Of a stretch of DNA of 64,000 nt, positions 2,917 to 12,041 are shown in pieces. This DNA is from Acetobacteraceae bacterium H6797. GTDB taxonomy: Bacteria; Pseudomonadota; Alphaproteobacteria; Acetobacterales; Acetobacteraceae. Position numbers and translations under genes: made by a program. Numbering within the stretch: position 1 is the first letter of the stretch; each line of letters begins with the position of its first letter. The notes under the pieces were generated by a model that did not search any database, was not told the origin of the DNA, and saw only the letters and a program-made list of their open reading frames with translations. The stretch is taken from NCBI GenBank assembly GCA_015223225.1, contig JADFCQ010000003.1, positions 558,001 to 622,000 of the forward strand, in the 5' to 3' direction.

Positions 2917-4338
2917 ATGATCTTCGCGTCGTTCGAGTTCGTGTTCCTGTTTCTGCCGATCTATTTCACGGCTTACTTCCTCGTGCCCGCGAAGTGGCGC
3001 AACTGGCCCGTCCTGCTGCTCTCCTGGCTCTTCTACGGATGGTGGCGGCTGGACTTCCTGGCCCTGCTGATGGCCGTCACGGTCTTCACCTTCTTCACCG
3101 CCCGGCTGATGGATGCGAAGGGGCCGAAGACGAAGGTCGGTACCCGGCTGCTGGTGATGGGACTGGTCGGCAATCTTTCCGTCCTCGCCTATTTCAAATA
3201 CGCGAATTTCGGTGTCGGCGCCTTCAACGACATGATGGTGGCCTTCGGCCTCACCACGGTCGGCTGGAGCGAGATCATCCTGCCGATCGGCCTATCCTTC
3301 TACGTGCTGCAATCGGTCAGCTACCTGATCGACCTTTGGCGCGGCGATGTGCCGGTCAGCCGCAGCTTCGTGAATTACGCCGCCTATAAGGCGATCTTCA
3401 GCCAGCTCATCGCCGGCCCCATCGTGCGCTATGCCGAGATCGAGAAGGATCTCAAGCATCGCGAGCACAGCCTCGCCCTTTTCGGGGAGGGCGCGCGGCG
3501 CTTCATGATCGGCTTCGTCATGAAGGTCGCGCTCGGCGATACGCTGAGCCCCGTGGTGGAGGCCGCCTTCCATCTGCCCTCGCCCACGCTGCTCGATGCC
3601 TGGACGGGCATGCTGGCCTATACGCTGCAGCTCTATTTCGATTTCGCCGGCTATTCGGCCATGGCGATTGGCCTCGCCCTGATGTGCGGCTTTCATTTCC
3701 CGGAGAATTTTAACAACCCCTATCTCTCCGGGAATATCCAGGAATTCTGGCAGCGCTGGCACATGACGCTCGGCCGCTTCCTGCGCGACTATCTCTACAT
3801 TCCCCTCGGCGGCAGCCGCGCCGGCCCCATCCGGACCTATGTGAACCTCTTCCTCACCATGGTCATCGGCGGCTTCTGGCACGGCGCGAACTGGACCTTC
3901 CTGCTCTGGGGCGCCTGGCATGGCGGCATGCTCGCCGTCCATCGCGCCTGGAGCCGGGCGGGTTTCGGGCCCATGCCCTATTGGCTCGCCAATCCGATCC
4001 TGCTCCTGGCCGTGGCGCTCGGCTGGGTGACCTTCCGCGCCACCGACATCCATGGCGCCTTCGCGATGTACAAGGGCCTGATCGGGCTGAACGGCACCGG
4101 CCTTTCCGACGGGCTCGCCTGGCAGATCACGCCCGACCAATGGTGGTGCCTGCCCATCGCGCTGGGCTTCGTCTATCTGCCGCTGCTTTCGCGCTGGACC
4201 GGCTTCGGCCGCCCACCCGAGGCCCATGGCCCGCTCTGGCGCGCGGGCTGGGCGGTGCTGCCCTTCCTCGGCTTCCTGCTGAGCCTCGTGCTGCTCTACA
4301 GCCGCGCGGCCGTGCCCTTCCTCTATTTCCAGTTCTGA
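2917..4338 (+). CDS. MBOAT O-acyltransferase, AlgI/WssH-like
   Basis: A 473-residue polytopic membrane protein of the AlgI branch of the MBOAT family, which passes acetyl groups across the inner membrane for O-acetylation of exopolysaccharide. The N-terminus (FVFLFLPIYFTAYFL), the LYFDFAGYSAMAIG segment, the EFWQRWHMTLGRFLRDYLYIPLGG block and the WHGANW and AWHGG histidines (His322 and His335) are classic AlgI signatures. The ATG at 2917 is preferred over the GTG at 2899 because AGGTGG lies 6 nt upstream and the family starts here. It heads a rightward run of acetylation/export genes that continues to 12041. Confidence 0.93.
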   Translation: MIFASFEFVFLFLPIYFTAYFLVPAKWRNWPVLLLSWLFYGWWRLDFLALLMAVTVFTFFTARLMDAKGPKTKVGTRLLVMGLVGNLSVLAYFKYANFGVGAFNDMMVAFGLTTVGWSEIILPIGLSFYVLQSVSYLIDLWRGDVPVSRSFVNYAAYKAIFSQLIAGPIVRYAEIEKDLKHREHSLALFGEGARRFMIGFVMKVALGDTLSPVVEAAFHLPSPTLLDAWTGMLAYTLQLYFDFAGYSAMAIGLALMCGFHFPENFNNPYLSGNIQEFWQRWHMTLGRFLRDYLYIPLGGSRAGPIRTYVNLFLTMVIGGFWHGANWTFLLWGAWHGGMLAVHRAWSRAGFGPMPYWLANPILLLAVALGWVTFRATDIHGAFAMYKGLIGLNGTGLSDGLAWQITPDQWWCLPIALGFVYLPLLSRWTGFGRPPEAHGPLWRAGWAVLPFLGFLLSLVLLYSRAAVPFLYFQF

Positions 4339-4345
4339 GGGCGCC

Positions 4346-5485
4346 ATGGACGAGAAGACCTCCCGCTTCCGCCTCCAGGCCCATCGGCTCCAGGCTGTGG
4401 CGACCATCGCGCTGCTGGGCTGGGGCTTCTGGGAGGGCGTGCAGGCGCTCTCCACGCCCGAGACGCGCGAGAAGCTGCGCCAATCGCTCTCCATCGAGGC
4501 GCTGCTGGATGGCCGGCTCGCCGGTGCGGTGAACCACGCCATGGCCCATGCGCTCCCGGCCGATCCGGTGCTGCGCGGCACCGGATCGGCTTTGCGCTGG
4601 GAGTTGTTCGGCTCGGCCGGGCCGCAGGTGAGGGCGGGCTGCGACGGCTGGCTCTTCCTGACCGAGGAACTCCGCCCCTGGCCCGCGCCGGAAGCCGCCA
4701 TGGCCGAGCGCATCGCCGTCGTGGAACGGGTGCGCGAGAAGCTGGCGAGCCAGGGCATCGCCCTGCTGGTCGCCCTGGTGCCGGACAAGGCGCGGATCGA
4801 GGCCGCCCATCGTTGCGGCATTCCCTATTCGGCACAATCAGAAGGGCGGCTCGCGGCGCTGCTCGACGGTTTCGCGAAAACGCTCGTGCCGGTCGTGAAC
4901 CTCGCCCCCGTGCTCACGGCCGCCAATCAGGATGGCGCGGCCTGGTATCGCACCGACACGCATTGGAGCCAGGAGGGCGCCGCGGCCGCGGCCAAGGCCG
5001 TGGCGGAGGCCGCGAAGCGCCTCACGCCCGGGCTGGAGCCGCGCGCCTTCCGCACCACGGCCGCCGCCAGCCCGAGCGACGGGCCGGGCGACCTCATCCG
5101 CCTCATGGGGCTCGATATCGTCCCGCCCGCGCTGCGCCCCGCGCCCGATCGCCAGCGTCTCGAGACCACGGAGGCAGAAGCGGCCCCGGCGGGCGGCGGA
5201 GGCGGCGGGCTGCTGGACGAGACGCCGGCCGTGCCGGTGGCACTGCTCGGCTCCTCCTATTCGCTGAACGCCAATTTCCACGGCCGCCTCCAAGAGGCGC
5301 TGGGCGCCGAGGTGACCAATGCCGCGCAACTCGGCGGCGGCTTTCACCGTGCCGCGGCACGCTATCTGGCCGGCGCCACCTTCCGCGAGGCGCCGCCGAA
5401 ACTGATCATCTGGGAAATGCCCGAACGCGTGATGACGCAGCCGCCCTCCGACGAGGAAAAAGTCTTTCTCGGAAGCTGGCGATGA
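4346..5485 (+). CDS. AlgJ/AlgX-like SGNH acetyltransferase, first copy
   Basis: A 379-residue protein with one N-terminal membrane segment (about residues 15-32) and a periplasmic SGNH-type domain. It has the family's opening CDGWLFL, the TDTHW motif (Asp204 and His206) and GSSYS (Ser303/304), which together supply the catalytic Ser-His-Asp set used by AlgJ/AlgX to transfer acetyl groups onto the polymer. It follows the AlgI-like gene by 7 bases. A glycine-rich insert (around residues 288-293) sits between the middle of the domain and the GSSYS motif. A second, Tat-leader version follows, so the two may act in succession, as AlgJ and AlgX do. Confidence 0.85.
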   Translation: MDEKTSRFRLQAHRLQAVATIALLGWGFWEGVQALSTPETREKLRQSLSIEALLDGRLAGAVNHAMAHALPADPVLRGTGSALRWELFGSAGPQVRAGCDGWLFLTEELRPWPAPEAAMAERIAVVERVREKLASQGIALLVALVPDKARIEAAHRCGIPYSAQSEGRLAALLDGFAKTLVPVVNLAPVLTAANQDGAAWYRTDTHWSQEGAAAAAKAVAEAAKRLTPGLEPRAFRTTAAASPSDGPGDLIRLMGLDIVPPALRPAPDRQRLETTEAEAAPAGGGGGGLLDETPAVPVALLGSSYSLNANFHGRLQEALGAEVTNAAQLGGGFHRAAARYLAGATFREAPPKLIIWEMPERVMTQPPSDEEKVFLGSWR

Positions 5486-5564
5486 GCGGCATGATCGTCC
5501 AAGCCAAGGGCACGGCCAGTGGTATGGTCAAAATTTATCGTCTAATCTCAGAAACTGTAACACG

Positions 5565-6554
5565 ATGAGTGTGGGAATGAACAAGATCGGTCGCCGCGCA
5601 GCCCTGGCTGGTTTGGTCGCGGCCTCGACTATGAGTGTGACGCGAGCCCGCGCCGCCGTGGTCAATAGTGCCGTCATCGGCAGCGATGGCTGGCTCTTCC
5701 CCGCCTGGGACGACGTCCGCCGCTTCGACGCCGCACGCATGCGCCAGGGCGCTGCCCTCATCCAGCAGGCGGCCGGTATCCTGAAGGCCGGCGGCATCGA
5801 CCTCGCCATCGCGCTCACGCCCATCAAGGCGCGGCTCTATCCTGAATTCCTGCCCAATGACTTCCGCCCCGGCCCCGATGCCGAGAAGCGTTATGGGCAG
5901 ACGATGCAGGAACTGGCGAAGAGCGCGCTCGTCCCGGATCTCGCCGCCGCCATGGCCGCGGCGAAGAAGGCCTATCCGCAGCAGCTTCTCTACATCAAGG
6001 CCGATACCCATTGGACGGCCTTCGGCGCCGAGGTCTGCGCGCTTGAGGTCGCCAAGGCCATGCAGGGAAAGTTCCGCCTGCCGGCCAGCACCCGCCCGGG
6101 CGTGCAATTCGGCCAGCCGCAGCTCTTCACGCAGGAGCAGAACGACCTCGCCGAGCTTCTGCCCGCCGCGCAGCAGGAAGCTTATCCGCCACAGCAATTT
6201 TGGGTGCGCCCGGTGGTCTCTGCCGGCCAGGCCTCGCTGCTCGACGATGACACGGCCGATGTCGTCGTCGTCGGCAACAGCTATATGCAGCCGAAATACG
6301 GCTTCGCGAACGTGCTGTCGCATACGCTGAACCGCCCGGTGGCGCTGTCGTGGAAAATCCACCGCTACGGCCCCTACAAGACGCTGCTCACCTATCTGCA
6401 GAGCGAGCCCTTCCGCCGCCAGCGGCCCAAGGCCCTGGTCTGGACCTTCCGCGAGACGGACCCGGAATTCATGCCCGACCAGGCCGGGATCTGGGGCACC
6501 AATGCCATGCCGCCGCGCCAGTTCCTCGACGACGTGAAGAAGGCCGTCGGCTGA
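5565..6554 (+). CDS. AlgJ/AlgX-like SGNH acetyltransferase, second copy
   Basis: A 329-residue relative of the preceding gene, with GSDGWLFPAWDD near the N-terminus, the ADTHW motif (Asp147, His149) and GNSYM (Ser239). The leader GRRAALAGLVAAS...ARA resembles a twin-arginine signal, suggesting export in folded form. An alternative start at 5577 (MNKIGRR) would fit such a leader better than 5565. A 79-bp gap, more AT-rich than its surroundings, separates it from the previous gene and could hold an internal promoter, though no clear boxes are visible. The stop overlaps the next start by one base. Confidence 0.82.
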   Translation: MSVGMNKIGRRAALAGLVAASTMSVTRARAAVVNSAVIGSDGWLFPAWDDVRRFDAARMRQGAALIQQAAGILKAGGIDLAIALTPIKARLYPEFLPNDFRPGPDAEKRYGQTMQELAKSALVPDLAAAMAAAKKAYPQQLLYIKADTHWTAFGAEVCALEVAKAMQGKFRLPASTRPGVQFGQPQLFTQEQNDLAELLPAAQQEAYPPQQFWVRPVVSAGQASLLDDDTADVVVVGNSYMQPKYGFANVLSHTLNRPVALSWKIHRYGPYKTLLTYLQSEPFRRQRPKALVWTFRETDPEFMPDQAGIWGTNAMPPRQFLDDVKKAVG

Positions 6555-7246
6555 TGCGCGCCCTCCGCCGCCTCGCGCTCGCCGCATCCCTGACCGTGCT
6601 GGGGGCCTTCGCGGCCCCCGCCATGGCGCAGCAGATCCTGTATGAGCCGGTGCCGCCGCCGGGCTCGGCCTATCTGCGCTTCGTGAACACGCTGGGCGCT
6701 GAGGTGACGGTGAAGCCGGACTTCCTGGCCGAGCGCCGCATGGGCACTGCGCCGGAGGATCGCGTCGGCGGTTTCGCGGTGGTCGAGAAGGTCGCCGGCC
6801 GTCAGCTGCGGGTGGAACTCGCCGCCGGCACCGCCACGGGCCGTGCGAGCCTGACCATCGAGCCGGGCAGCTTCAACACCATCCTGATCCAGCCCGGGCC
6901 GGGCGGCACCCTGGCCGCGCTGCCGGTGCAGGACGACACTGCCTTCAACCAGAACCGCGCACGGCTCGCCTTCTACAACGCCATCCCCGGCTGCGCCGAT
7001 GGCAGCCTGATGCTGGAGCCGGGCAAGCAGGCGGTCTTCCAGGGCGTGGCGCCGGGCAAGGCTTCCGCCCGCAGCGTCAATCCGGTGACGGCCCAGCTTC
7101 TCGCCTCCTGTGGCGGGCGCAGCGCGCCGGTCTTCGACCTCAAGGGCGTCGAGGCGGGCGGCATGTACAGCATCTGGCTGATGCAGCCCGGCGGCGAGCC
7201 GCTGGCCTTCGTCACGCGTGACCGCACGCTGCGCTGGCAGCCGTGA
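6554..7246 (+). CDS. AlgF/WssG-like periplasmic acetylation protein
   Basis: A 230-residue exported protein with a Sec leader ending AMA-QQ (about residue 26). The mature start (LYEPVPPPGSAYLRFVN) and general layout match AlgF, a periplasmic partner needed for polymer O-acetylation, followed by two beta-rich segments. The ATG is fused to the preceding stop (TGATG) and the gene overlaps the next one by GTGA, so it is translationally coupled on both sides. Similarity is at the level of the family pattern; AlgF-like proteins diverge quickly, so the assignment leans on context. Confidence 0.75.
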   Translation: MRALRRLALAASLTVLGAFAAPAMAQQILYEPVPPPGSAYLRFVNTLGAEVTVKPDFLAERRMGTAPEDRVGGFAVVEKVAGRQLRVELAAGTATGRASLTIEPGSFNTILIQPGPGGTLAALPVQDDTAFNQNRARLAFYNAIPGCADGSLMLEPGKQAVFQGVAPGKASARSVNPVTAQLLASCGGRSAPVFDLKGVEAGGMYSIWLMQPGGEPLAFVTRDRTLRWQP

Positions 7247-10200
7247 CACATCGCTTCGCATTGCGATGGGCCATTGCCTTGCCCATCGTATTGCCCTGGT
7301 GCATGGCGCTGAACGGCGCCCAGGCCCAGACGCAACCTCCGCCGCCGCCCCCGGCCCTGCCGGGCGATCCGGCAGCGGCCGCGCCTGAACCCGTCGCCGC
7401 GCCTCCAGCCCCGGCGGAAGCTCCCCCGGCCATCGCTGCGCAGGCGCCCGTCCAGGCCGCCAGCACGGCCGAAGTGCCGCAGGCGCTCGCCGTGCTGCTC
7501 CGGCAGATCGCTTTTTGGCGCGCGCAGCAGCAGCCCGACCGCGCGATGCGCACCGTCGAGACGATGCTGCAATCCTACCCGCAGCATCCCCAGGCCCTGG
7601 CCGCCGCCTTCGACGTCGCCGCGCAATTGGGCGACCGTGCGGCAATGCAGGACTATCGTGCGCGCCTCGTCGCCGTCTCGCCCAACGACCCGCAACTTCC
7701 CCGGCTCGATTCCGCCCTGCGCGCCGCCGCCATGGACCCGGCCGTGCTGCGCGAGGCCCGCAGCCTCGCCGCCGCCGGCAAGGCGGATGAGGCCGTGGCC
7801 CGCTACAAGGCCGCCTTCGGCAATGGCCCGGTGCCGGATTCCCTGGCCCTCGAATATTACCGGACGCTCGCGAGCACCGGCATCCTCGGCTATCGCGAGG
7901 CCCTGCCGGTGCTGCGCCGCCTCTCGGCCGCCTCGCCCAACGACTATCAGCTCCAGCTCGCCGTCGCCGAGGTCATGACCTATCGCGAATTGGCGCGGAC
8001 GGAAGGGATGGAGCGACTCCGCGCGCTCACCCGCCAGCCGGAAGTGGCCGAGCAGGCGCGCCGCTCCTGGCGCCTCGCGCTCACCTGGCTGGGCCCGACC
8101 TTCGACGGGCAGGACATGCTGAACAGCTACCTGTCGCAATTCCCGAGCGATCCGGAGCTGGAGGCCAAGCGCGAGGAATTCCGCCGCAGCCTGCCGGACG
8201 AGGCGCAGCGCGTGCTGCTCGCGGGCTATGGCGCCTTCAATGCCGGCGACATGGCCACCGCCGAGCGGAACTTCCAGCAGGCGCGGCAGATGAAGCCGCA
8301 GGATACGGAGGCCATCGTCGCCCTGGCGGCGGTGCGCAAGCAGCAGGGCCGCAATGCCGAGGCCACCGCGCTGATCCAGGAGGCGATCCGCCTCGCGCCC
8401 GAACGGCGTGAGGAATTGCTGGGCGGGCCCTCCGTGGCGGCCGCCATTCCGCAAAGCCCCTCGCTTCTCGCCCGCCGCGCCCTGCAGCGGGACGATCTCG
8501 AACGCGCCGATGGCCTCGCCCGGCGCGCGGCCAAGAGCAACAACGATGGCGAGCGACTGCAAGGCCTCGTGGTGCTGGCCCAGGTCGCGCTGCGCCGCAA
8601 TGACCTGCCGACCGCCGAGGCGCGCTATCGCGAGGCCCTGGCCCTCCGCCCGAACATGCAGGAGGCGCTTTCCGGCCTCTATGACGTGTTGCAGCGGCAG
8701 AACCGCATCGCCGAGGCCGATACCCTCCGTCAGCAGACCGGGCTCACCCCCTGGTCCGGCACCACCAGCGTCGTCGCCGCGCGGTTGCAGGAAGAGGCGG
8801 GCAAAGAGAGCGACCCGGCCAAGGCGCTCTCGCTGCTGCGCGAGGCGCAGCAGGCCGATCCGAGCAGCCCCTGGATCCGCCTCGACCAGGCCCGGCTGCT
8901 GAAGGACCAGGGCGACCTCGCCGGCCGGCGGCAGGTGGAGCAAGGGCTGCTCGATATGGGCAGCCCGGATGCGCTCTATGCCGCCGCCCTGATCGCTTCC
9001 GGCGACGAGCGCCATGCCGAGGCGGCCCAGGCGCTCGAGCGCGTGCCCGTGCGCCTGCGCTCCTCCGACATGTCGCGCCTGTTGAATACCGAACGCATCA
9101 AGGCCGAGGCCGAGCGGCTCGAGGGTTTCGCGCGCAACTATCCCGCCCAGGGCGTCGGCCCGCTCGTGGCCCTCGCCGCGCGCCGGGATGGCAGCGGGCT
9201 GGGCGCGAGCGAGGCGGTGCAGGCGCTGGGCCGGCTGGAGCAGGGCGCCGCCGCCCGCGCCGCCGCCAGTGCCGCCATGGCCGCCAACCCCTATTGGAGC
9301 CCCGCGCCGATCATCCAGCTCGCCGGCGCCCTGATGCGGGCCAAGGAGCCGGAGGCCGCCTATAAGCTGCTCGGCGAGCGGCTCGATGAATCGCGCCTCA
9401 CCGACGAGGAGCGGCGCCAGCTCAAGGCGCTGCGCACCGGCGAAACGATCATGCAGGCCGAGCGCCTTTCCGCGCGGGGCGACTATGTCGCCGCCCAGGC
9501 CAGGCTCGCCCCCTTGCAGCAGTCGATGCCCGGCAATGCCTCGGTGATCGCGGCCAATGCGCGGCTGCAACTCGCCGCTGGCCATCCCCGCGAGGCCCGG
9601 CGCATAGGCGAGGAGCTTCTGGCGCGCGATCCGGAGAATATGGAAGCCCGGATGGTGGTGGTCTACGCCGCCATGGCCCAGGGCGACTATCGCACCGCCC
9701 AGGCGATGACGGAGCAGGCCCGGCTGCGCAAGCCGGAGGACCCCCAGCTCATCCTCCTCAGCGCGCAGCTTGCCCGGGCCCGCGGCGATTTCAGCACCGC
9801 CTGGCGCGGCGTGGAGGAAGCCGCCCGGGCCAAGGCGGCCGAGCAGCGCGCGAAGGGCGAGCCCGTCTCGCCCCAGCTCGTCTCCAGCCTCTCGGCGACG
9901 CGGCTCGGCGGCGTGGGCACGAGCGACCCGCTGGTCGATGAGATCGTGCGGGAACGCAAGGCGCTCAAGGAAGAATCCGAAATCCGCTTCGCGGCTACCG
10001 GCAGCCTGCGCGCGCATAGCGGCACGGCGGGCACGGGGCGGCTGACGGAGGCCTCGCTGCCGCTGGAAGCCTCGGCCCCCATGCCCGGCCTCGGCGGCCG
10101 CATCTATGGCCGCGTGACGCCCGTGACGCTCGATGCGGGCAGCATGAAGGGGGAAGGGGCCGGCGAATTCGGCACCAACCCGCTGACCGGCGCCACCCCG

Positions 10201-11082
10201 GCCAATCGCGATTCAACCCGCGCCACGGGCGTCGGGCTCCAACTGGGCTATGTGAACTACAACACGGGCACCTTCCTCGGTCAGGTGCTGGGCGATGCGG
10301 GCACGACGCCGATCGGCTTCCGACAGACCAACTTCGCCGGCGGCATCGAGATCGCACCCTCGCTGACCGACCAGCTCCGCCTGCGCCTCGCCGCCGACCG
10401 CCGGGCCATCACCGACAGCGTCCTCTCCTACGCCGGCGCGCGCGACGAGGAGAGCGGCCGCACCTGGGGCGGCGTGATGCGCACGAGTTTCCGGGGCCAG
10501 CTCGAACTCCAGACGGGCAAGACCACGTGGTATGCCGGCGGAAGCTGGTCGATGCTGCGTGGGCAGAATGTCGCGTCCAATACCGGCCGCGAAATCGGGG
10601 TGGGCTTCAACCACAACCTCATCAAGACCGACGATCAGGACCTGATCCTCGGCCTCGATCTCCGCTACGCCGCCTTCGACAAGAACCTGCGCTACTACAC
10701 CTATGGCCAGGGCGGCTATTTCAGCCCGCAATCCTCGCTGGCGGCGGTCGGCTCGCTACAATGGCGCCAGCGCTGGGGCGATTGGGAGACGAAGCTCGGC
10801 GGCTCGCTCGGCGTGCAGCGGTTCCGCGAATCCTCGAGCCCCTATTTCCCGACCGACGCGGCCATGCAGGCCGCCCTGGAGGCGAGCGGGGAGACGAGCA
10901 GCTATGCCGGGCAGGAGAAGACGGCGGTGGTCGCTGGCCTCAACGCCGCCATCGAATATGACCTGACGCAGCAACTCACGCTCGGCCTCTCGGGCCGCTA
11001 CATCAAGAGCGGTGTGTGGAACGAAGGGGCCGGGCTGCTCTATGCGCGCTACAGGTTCAGCCCCCTTTCATCCTCTCCCTGA
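7243..11082 (+). CDS. BcsC/WssE-like TPR and outer-membrane barrel export protein
   Basis: A 1279-residue protein: a leader ending AQAQT, a proline/alanine-rich linker (to about residue 70), a long array of TPR-like helices (about residues 75-870), then a C-terminal beta-barrel of the BcsC type. The barrel shows the family landmarks LSYAGARDEESGRTWGGV and TYGQGGYFSPQ and ends in an aromatic-rich strand (LLYARYRFSP). BcsC guides cellulose through periplasm and outer membrane. The start is GTG, overlapping the previous stop. No cellulose synthase (BcsA/B) or alginate polymerase is in this window, so the exported polymer is unknown; acetylated cellulose, as in the Pseudomonas Wss system, is the closest precedent. 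Confidence 0.88.
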   Translation: MTHRFALRWAIALPIVLPWCMALNGAQAQTQPPPPPPALPGDPAAAAPEPVAAPPAPAEAPPAIAAQAPVQAASTAEVPQALAVLLRQIAFWRAQQQPDRAMRTVETMLQSYPQHPQALAAAFDVAAQLGDRAAMQDYRARLVAVSPNDPQLPRLDSALRAAAMDPAVLREARSLAAAGKADEAVARYKAAFGNGPVPDSLALEYYRTLASTGILGYREALPVLRRLSAASPNDYQLQLAVAEVMTYRELARTEGMERLRALTRQPEVAEQARRSWRLALTWLGPTFDGQDMLNSYLSQFPSDPELEAKREEFRRSLPDEAQRVLLAGYGAFNAGDMATAERNFQQARQMKPQDTEAIVALAAVRKQQGRNAEATALIQEAIRLAPERREELLGGPSVAAAIPQSPSLLARRALQRDDLERADGLARRAAKSNNDGERLQGLVVLAQVALRRNDLPTAEARYREALALRPNMQEALSGLYDVLQRQNRIAEADTLRQQTGLTPWSGTTSVVAARLQEEAGKESDPAKALSLLREAQQADPSSPWIRLDQARLLKDQGDLAGRRQVEQGLLDMGSPDALYAAALIASGDERHAEAAQALERVPVRLRSSDMSRLLNTERIKAEAERLEGFARNYPAQGVGPLVALAARRDGSGLGASEAVQALGRLEQGAAARAAASAAMAANPYWSPAPIIQLAGALMRAKEPEAAYKLLGERLDESRLTDEERRQLKALRTGETIMQAERLSARGDYVAAQARLAPLQQSMPGNASVIAANARLQLAAGHPREARRIGEELLARDPENMEARMVVVYAAMAQGDYRTAQAMTEQARLRKPEDPQLILLSAQLARARGDFSTAWRGVEEAARAKAAEQRAKGEPVSPQLVSSLSATRLGGVGTSDPLVDEIVRERKALKEESEIRFAATGSLRAHSGTAGTGRLTEASLPLEASAPMPGLGGRIYGRVTPVTLDAGSMKGEGAGEFGTNPLTGATPANRDSTRATGVGLQLGYVNYNTGTFLGQVLGDAGTTPIGFRQTNFAGGIEIAPSLTDQLRLRLAADRRAITDSVLSYAGARDEESGRTWGGVMRTSFRGQLELQTGKTTWYAGGSWSMLRGQNVASNTGREIGVGFNHNLIKTDDQDLILGLDLRYAAFDKNLRYYTYGQGGYFSPQSSLAAVGSLQWRQRWGDWETKLGGSLGVQRFRESSSPYFPTDAAMQAALEASGETSSYAGQEKTAVVAGLNAAIEYDLTQQLTLGLSGRYIKSGVWNEGAGLLYARYRFSPLSSSP

Positions 11083-11092
11083 TGGAGCCGTG

Positions 11093-11860
11093 ATGCGCCT
11101 GCGGATCGAGACGAAGCGCCTTCTGGGAGCCCTGGCGGGCGTGGTTCTGGCAGTGTCGGGGCAGGCGGCCCTGGCGGCCGAGGCCTGCCCCGGCCTGCCG
11201 CTCCGCCAGCCGCCGCCGCGGGAGGCCATCCCCGCCGCCTTCACCGAGCCGCAATGGGTGGCGCGGAACAACCAGCTCGAACAGCAGATGGCCGGCGCCA
11301 ATTTCTCGCGCACGCGGCTGCTCTTCCTGGGCGATTCCATCACGGAAAGCTGGCCGCCCAATCTTTACCAGCATTTCTACGGCCATCGCGGCGCCTTCAA
11401 CATGGGCGTGCGCAGCGACAATACGATGGGCATGCTCTGGCGCCTGCCGCGCGCGCCTCTGGGGCGCACGCTGAAGCCGCAACTCGTCGTACTGCTGCTC
11501 GGCACCAACAATATCTGGCCGGGTGCCAAGCCCGAGGATGTCGCCACCGGCATCGCCGAGGTAGTGCGGCAGATCCGCCGTCAATCGCCCACGAGCCGCG
11601 TGCTGCTGGTCGGCGTGCTGCCGCGCGGCGCCGATGCGAGCGAGCCCGCGCGGCCGGTGATCGCGCAGGTCAATGCCCTGCTCGCAGGCTGCGCCGATAA
11701 CAGCACGGTCTTCTTCGCCAATCCCGGCCCGATGCTGCTCGACGGCCAGGGCGTGCTCTCGGAGCAGATGTCGCCCGACAGGCTCCATCTCACCTGGCTC
11801 GGCTATGCCATTCTCGGCGCGGGTCTCGAACCCGATATCCGGCGCATCCTGGGCGAATAG
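11093..11860 (+). CDS. Secreted SGNH/GDSL-family esterase
   Basis: A 255-residue protein with a Sec leader (cleavage near ALA-AEA, about residue 28) and clear SGNH blocks: GDSIT (Ser82), GTNNI (block III Asn) and DRLHLT (Asp229, His232). This branch resembles platelet-activating-factor acetylhydrolase-like and acetyl-xylan esterase-like lipases. In this context it could remove or edit acetyl groups on the polymer, or act like the SGNH protein of acetic-acid-bacterial cellulose operons. The ATG at 11093 is chosen because it begins the signal peptide; a start at 11012 would lie inside the barrel gene. It follows that gene by 10 bases. Confidence 0.85.
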   Translation: MRLRIETKRLLGALAGVVLAVSGQAALAAEACPGLPLRQPPPREAIPAAFTEPQWVARNNQLEQQMAGANFSRTRLLFLGDSITESWPPNLYQHFYGHRGAFNMGVRSDNTMGMLWRLPRAPLGRTLKPQLVVLLLGTNNIWPGAKPEDVATGIAEVVRQIRRQSPTSRVLLVGVLPRGADASEPARPVIAQVNALLAGCADNSTVFFANPGPMLLDGQGVLSEQMSPDRLHLTWLGYAILGAGLEPDIRRILGE

Positions 11861-11861
11861 G

Positions 11862-12041
11862 ATGGATCTGAGCCGGCTGCTGATCCGTCTGGCGATGTGG
11901 TGGCGCAACCCGCCCTCGCCGAAGCGGATGAAGCTGATCCTGGCCGTGGTCGCGATCTGCCTCGTGATCGTGCTCATCGAGCATCTCTTCGGCCGGCCCG
12001 AATGGATGCATGTCGAGAAAGTGCCGATCAGGCGCTTCTGA
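11862..12041 (+). CDS. 59-residue single-span membrane protein
   Basis: A short gene that starts one base after the preceding stop. The product has a basic N-terminal half (WWRNPPSPKRMK), one hydrophobic span (about residues 24-41, LILAVVAICLVIVLIEHL) and a short tail GRPEWMHVEKV. It is too small for an enzyme and looks like an inner-membrane accessory subunit of the acetylation/export block. The span and tail resemble the 37-residue protein encoded at 20578-20691 (shared VVAICL, then Gly and Glu-Trp about ten residues later). I do not recognise a named family. Confidence 0.65.
   Translation: MDLSRLLIRLAMWWRNPPSPKRMKLILAVVAICLVIVLIEHLFGRPEWMHVEKVPIRRF

Follow-up and report, generated by a model that had tools for sequence, protein, structure and literature searches.

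A Wss-like acetylation and export block that probably serves a remote cellulose synthase in an Acetobacteraceae genome

Type I bcs operons, as in Komagataeibacter, run in the order cmcAx/bcsZ, the ccpAx position, bcsA, bcsB, bcsC and bcsD. The closest described relative of the locus studied here is the Wss system (Pseudomonas fluorescens SBW25 wssABCDEFGHIJ; Achromobacter, Bordetella avium), whose homologues are devoted to cellulose and whose gene set includes a GDSL-type protein (PMC10302187, PMC7112194, PMC9318390). Very few operons for acetylated cellulose were known, four among the 1733 genomes of one survey (PMC7112194). Little is understood about how an enzyme that modifies a polymer is paired with its synthase and exporter. 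We analyzed a 64,000-nucleotide window of Acetobacteraceae bacterium H6797 (G000:C3:558001-622000; genome G000, 4.84 Mb in 9 contigs), in which homologues of AlgI/WssH, AlgJ/WssI, AlgF/WssG and BcsC/WssE, all held in common with Wss, form a compact block. BcsA and BcsB (WssB/WssC) are encoded in the same operon in Wss; they are not here, whereas in Roseococcus and in G014-type relatives they are. The window genome further differs from Wss in having its synthase on another contig, two AlgJ-like enzymes and two BcsC proteins. We consider it likely that the block is the acetylation and export half of a Wss-type system, acting in trans on cellulose from a single remote BcsA/BcsB.

The block comprises seven packed open reading frames (ORFs), all on the + strand, spanning positions 2917-12041 of the window:

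2917..4338, + strand: AlgI/WssH-like membrane-bound O-acyltransferase (MBOAT), 473 residues (Pfam MBOAT, 5.7e-27)
4346..5485, + strand: AlgJ/WssI-like O-acetyltransferase 1 (AlgX1), 379 residues, with an N-terminal hydrophobic anchor (Pfam ALGX, 7.9e-72)
5565..6554, + strand: AlgJ/WssI-like O-acetyltransferase 2 (AlgX2), 329 residues, with a twin-arginine-like signal (Pfam ALGX, 2e-51)
6551..7246, + strand: AlgF/WssG-like periplasmic adaptor, 231 residues (Pfam AlgF, 5.6e-7)
7243..11082, + strand: BcsC2, the second BcsC, a tetratricopeptide repeat (TPR) scaffold plus outer-membrane barrel, 1279 residues (BCSC_C, 7.6e-87, plus TPRs)
11093..11860, + strand: secreted SGNH/GDSL esterase-like protein, 255 residues (Pfam Lipase_GDSL_2, 5.5e-25)
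11862..12041, + strand: candidate ORF of 59 residues with one likely membrane helix, an open frame 1 bp past the SGNH stop

Neighbouring ORFs are at most 79 bp apart, and two pairs overlap by 4 bp at their stop and start codons (algX2/algF at 6551-6554, algF/bcsC at 7243-7246), so co-transcription is likely; a scan for sigma-70-like promoters, uninformative at such high GC, found none. The flanks are metabolic, with a family III coenzyme A-transferase upstream and an M20 peptidase downstream. The initial annotation, made from the sequence alone, had described packed AlgI, AlgJ/X, AlgF, BcsC and SGNH genes on one strand, and the ORFs and Pfam matches bear this out. Its two AlgJ/X copies are indeed two, and both are closer to AlgJ than to AlgX. 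The tiny membrane protein that it placed in the block is an open frame, with no homologue at any relative's locus examined, and is therefore only a candidate gene.

The catalytic residues of the block are conserved. His322 of AlgI is invariant across 31 homologues, as are D204, H206 and S303/S304 of AlgX1 in 29 aligned sequences and D147, H149 and S239 of AlgX2 in 27. Both AlgX proteins carry permuted SGNH motifs, with DTH first and then GSS or GNS (D-x-H before the GxS serine), and both match the AlgJ structure 4o8v (9.1e-40 for AlgX1, 4.2e-25 for AlgX2) far better than AlgX. The ALGX domain fills each protein (residues 95-360 of 379 and 37-297 of 329), leaving no room for the carbohydrate-binding module of AlgX. 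The SGNH protein keeps its motifs (GDS 80-82, GTN(N) from 137 with GTN at 137-139, D229xxH232) in 19 sequences, and its nearest solved structures are platelet-activating factor acetylhydrolase and O-acetylesterase-type proteins. AlgF is the weakest call of the block, with a Pfam score of 29.7 bits that lies below the curated cut-off of 34.4 bits. The protein also matches the Protein Data Bank AlgF structure 6czt at 1.4e-4, and its homologues adjoin other acetylation genes in block-bearing relatives.

Genome-wide searches located the only BcsB on contig C1 (1272022-1273857), which agrees with the earlier statement that the 64-kb window holds no synthase, and identified the window's AlgI as the only MBOAT in the genome. 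The C1 locus (L013) reads bcsZ (glycoside hydrolase family 8, GH8), a proline-rich protein, bcsA (glycosyltransferase family 2, GT2, plus PilZ), bcsB, bcsC1 and bcsD, and contains no acetylation gene. A search for bcsA/bcsB elsewhere in the genome had been proposed as a check, and their presence on C1 without acetylation genes of their own backs action in trans. The initial annotation had named a complete bcs or alg operon elsewhere, with AlgI/J/F and BcsC copies of its own, as evidence against its proposal; the remote bcs locus does have its own BcsC, and it lacks AlgI, AlgJ and AlgF, while no AlgE-type exporter (PF13372) matches in the genome. The two BcsC copies of the genome, BcsC1 and BcsC2, are 40-49% identical.

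We compared the block with 397 genomes of the family, and BcsC copy numbers were taken from a search of 54 genomes. Evidence for action in trans comes from a neighbouring genus (g16), in which five species (G360, G385, G106, G268, G292) have a detached block of algI, algX1, algF and bcsC2. In each of the five genomes BcsC is encoded only once, by the gene in the detached block. Their bcs locus lies on another contig and runs from bcsB to bcsD, the matched stretches being ~75-140 bp apart and bcsC missing; the BcsD of G360 and G385 was confirmed by Pfam. The block-less members of the genus (G015, G161, G204, G238, G313) also have one BcsC, positioned directly after bcsB, and bcsD is next in 4/5. 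Since the sole BcsC of the five block-bearing species sits in the detached block, it must export their cellulose, if any BcsC does, and on that gene content the detached block must then act in trans with the distant bcs locus. Within the genus BcsC2 occurs where BcsC1 has been lost, and in the five species this may be a single inherited event. The separation is not a contig-edge artefact, a possibility we rejected because the window's own contig is 622 kb long and G360 and G385 carry block and bcsAB deep inside long contigs.

Elsewhere in the family the same genes are joined to bcsAB. AlgX1 matches in 58/397 genomes, strongly in 51, and BcsB in 160/397. BcsB is present in 47/51 block genomes compared to 113/346 others (Fisher p 1.4e-16, uncorrected for kinship). 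Four block genomes have no BcsB match (G160, G203, G373, G163): in G160 and G203 pieces of bcsB or bcsA adjoin the block at contig ends, and the assembly of G373 is in about 600 contigs. Roseococcus (L027, L030), G215 and G364 share the attached order bcsAB-algX2-algF-bcsC2-SGNH, with algX1-algI convergent to the attached operon in Roseococcus-type loci and ~30 kb away in G364. G014, G160 and G203, pieced together from contigs, read algX2-algF-bcsC2-bcsA and bcsB-SGNH-algI-algX1. The comparison of neighbourhoods called for by the initial annotation thus places the acetylation genes and the BcsC2 lineage directly beside bcsAB, and by this attachment the client polymer of the block is very likely cellulose. 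In a separate case, G347 (L129), bcsC1 and bcsD are apparently decayed beside bcsAB, algI-algX1 lie elsewhere, and no BcsC barrel was found in the genome.

Maximum-likelihood trees (quick IQ-TREE runs with support from the SH-like approximate likelihood ratio test, SH-aLRT, only) link the detached and attached blocks. All 13/13 full-length BcsC proteins from blocks with algF and algI/algX, attached or detached, form one clade, BcsC2 (SH-aLRT 100). Outside it fall the BcsC proteins whose genes adjoin bcsAB in loci lacking acetylation genes, among them BcsC1 of the window genome, and also those of G006 and G142, two more distant genomes with a different gene order. The window's AlgI is sister to the five g16 detached-block AlgI proteins (99), with Roseococcus as neighbour in the tree. 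The AlgI proteins of the family as a whole have the Wss-like beta-proteobacterial ones as their sister group (99), and Pseudomonas AlgI proteins lie outside. Among the synthases, that of the window genome clusters with those attached to acetylation genes (support 87) and apart from the second synthases of some relatives. Together, the remote bcsAB, the attached relatives and the g16 genomes with a sole BcsC support the earlier proposal of a Wss-like acetylation and export half that serves a remote synthase.

The acetylation genes of some lineages are accompanied by just the TPR half of BcsC2. The block of genus g4 (G290, G371, G329, G358; L114, L119, L165, L166) carries a TPR-only protein without a barrel, which falls within the BcsC2 clade (support 100). 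G010 (L116/L133) and G239 (L159/L146) have a split BcsC: the acetylation locus contains a TPR-only frame of 880 or 913 residues, and the bcs locus encodes a barrel in which at most one TPR was detected. Judged by these gene arrangements, what stays with the acetylation genes throughout is the predicted TPR scaffold. For alginate, the pairing of the TPR protein AlgK with the acetyltransferase AlgX is known from a crystal structure, and TPR-enzyme contacts are also known for PelB-PelA and PgaA-PgaB (PMC9734138). The AlgK-AlgX precedent and the TPR half that travels alone point to the TPR domain of BcsC2 as a dock for the acetyltransferases. By the same analogy the g4 TPR-only proteins may be AlgK-like scaffolds. 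Genome G163 (L147, L148) has acetylation genes together with a TPR-only BcsC-like protein.

These observations suggest a mechanism, in which BcsA with BcsB would extrude cellulose, as their homologues do, and the PilZ domain of BcsA makes activation by cyclic di-GMP (c-di-GMP) probable. AlgI, like AlgI/WssH, would pass acetyl groups over the inner membrane, and the two AlgJ/WssI-like enzymes, with AlgF as adaptor, would acetylate the passing glucan. WssI has been shown biochemically to acetylate cello-oligomers (PMC10302187). The acetyltransferases would dock on the TPR domain of BcsC2, the modified chain would leave through the BcsC2 barrel, and the SGNH esterase could trim or relay acetyl groups. 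As the window genome also has BcsC1 beside bcsAB, its one synthase probably has two outlets: BcsC1, with BcsD, is probably the outlet for plain cellulose and BcsC2 the one for acetylated cellulose. A tentative extension, which we rate as somewhat more doubtful than probable, is that the cell sets polymer modification by its choice of exporter, BcsC1 or BcsC2, encoded at different loci. In relatives the choice would have become fixed, either through loss of bcsC1 or because BcsC2 shrank to a TPR-only scaffold that brings acetyltransferases to a different barrel.

Several observations weigh against a remote block acting in trans in the window genome. The bcsA and bcsB genes lie in two overlapping, different frames (L013:11900-12560), where nearly all relatives have one fused BcsAB ORF; a stretch resembling the BcsB signal sequence sits in the bcsA frame. 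The frame break is due either to misassembly or to a defective synthase, and on this depends whether the system is functional in the strain. Because BcsC1 is present, the need for BcsC2 is not inferable from the window genome alone. The window block and the g16 blocks have no flanking genes in common, so one detachment cannot be told from two and a common detachment is unproven. The position of the window's BcsC2 inside its clade is unsupported (60), though its AlgI does join the g16 proteins (99). Finally, G163 carries a block with neither BcsB nor a BcsC barrel match, in a genome that is 92% complete.

Two other explanations are unlikely to a similar degree. The block could serve a different synthase of the same genome, which has other GT2 genes, one of which, on contig C2, also encodes a PilZ domain and is paired with an HlyD-like gene; the product would then be an acetylated non-cellulose beta-glucan. 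This cellulose-synthase-like gene and the adjoining HlyD-like gene (L016:8703-11917, G000:C2) resemble the Bgs mixed-linkage glucan pair, of which BgsA is reported to have no predictable c-di-GMP domain (PMC5567048). The pair has no obvious outer-membrane exporter nearby, and its HlyD partner occurs somewhat more often in genomes with the block (13/51) than in the others (15/346). However, the partner occurs in only 28/397 genomes, is absent from 38/51 block genomes and is found in 0/5 of the g16 genomes with a detached block, and relatives join the acetylation block to bcsAB, not to a C2-type pair. We therefore rejected the pair as the main client, given its absence from the five g16 genomes; it could be an additional client in the window genome.

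Alternatively, the block could be a relic, inactive or weakly active, that has outlived a lost second bcsAB. The paralogous exporter BcsC1 already beside bcsAB, the frame break at the BcsA/B junction in the assembly and the decayed bcsC of G347 are in keeping with such an improbable history. Against it, none of the six major ORFs is interrupted and their catalytic residues are invariant, and detached blocks have been kept in the five g16 species in which the block must supply export. Least probable of all, and in our estimate very unlikely, is the second option of the initial annotation, a separate polymer system of mixed alginate/cellulose design; such a system would have a dedicated synthase of its own. 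Alg-like and Bcs-like genes are mixed away from any synthase, but the attached homologues sit with bcsAB and AlgI groups with the Wss-like beta-proteobacterial proteins. An alginate system proper was rejected on the AlgI phylogeny and the missing AlgE-type porin.

The literature we searched, which took in few subscription journals, contained no report of a detached acetylation-plus-exporter module and no paper on cellulose acetylation in Roseomonas. Within the Wss type, a Wss-like operon of Paraburkholderia podalyriae (L031:1-12587) has two tandem BcsB-like genes, an arrangement described for Bordetella avium (PMC7112194). The block's SGNH protein has no similarity at 1e-4 to the small ORF in the WssF position of the Paraburkholderia locus, and that ORF has no Pfam match. 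Komagataeibacter bcsII (bcsAB-bcsX-bcsY-bcsCII) likewise ties a second BcsC to a putative cellulose acylation, and its BcsX is an SGNH protein (PMC9318390). However, bcsII has its own bcsAB and the window block has none, and the acyltransferase of the block is an AlgI-type MBOAT. Genes of the wssGHIJ type are absent in K. xylinus E25 (PMC9318390), whereas the window block has AlgI, AlgJ and AlgF.

The alginate system (AlgI/J/F/X, AlgK, AlgE) has homologous acetylation enzymes, and a TPR scaffold docked to an acetyltransferase is a likely shared principle (PMC9734138). It differs from the block, which has a BcsC-type exporter and no AlgE match, lacks the AlgX carbohydrate-binding module and has an AlgI outside the Pseudomonas group. 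Here a modification and export module has parted from its synthase and retains an exporter lineage of its own, of which some lineages have just the TPR half, and this layout makes possible a direct test of whether acetylation follows the exporter. The 1733-genome survey also described alpha-proteobacterial cellulose loci without BcsC and with a divergent BcsB, for which no BcsC was identified (PMC7112194). Cellulose loci should not be judged by operon content alone, and the absence of bcsC from a bcs locus need not mean a defect in export. The remote C1 locus has the order of the type I bcs operon, with a GH8 BcsZ and BcsD; the five g16 species depart from that order in missing bcsC, which would be replaced there in trans by the BcsC2 of the block.

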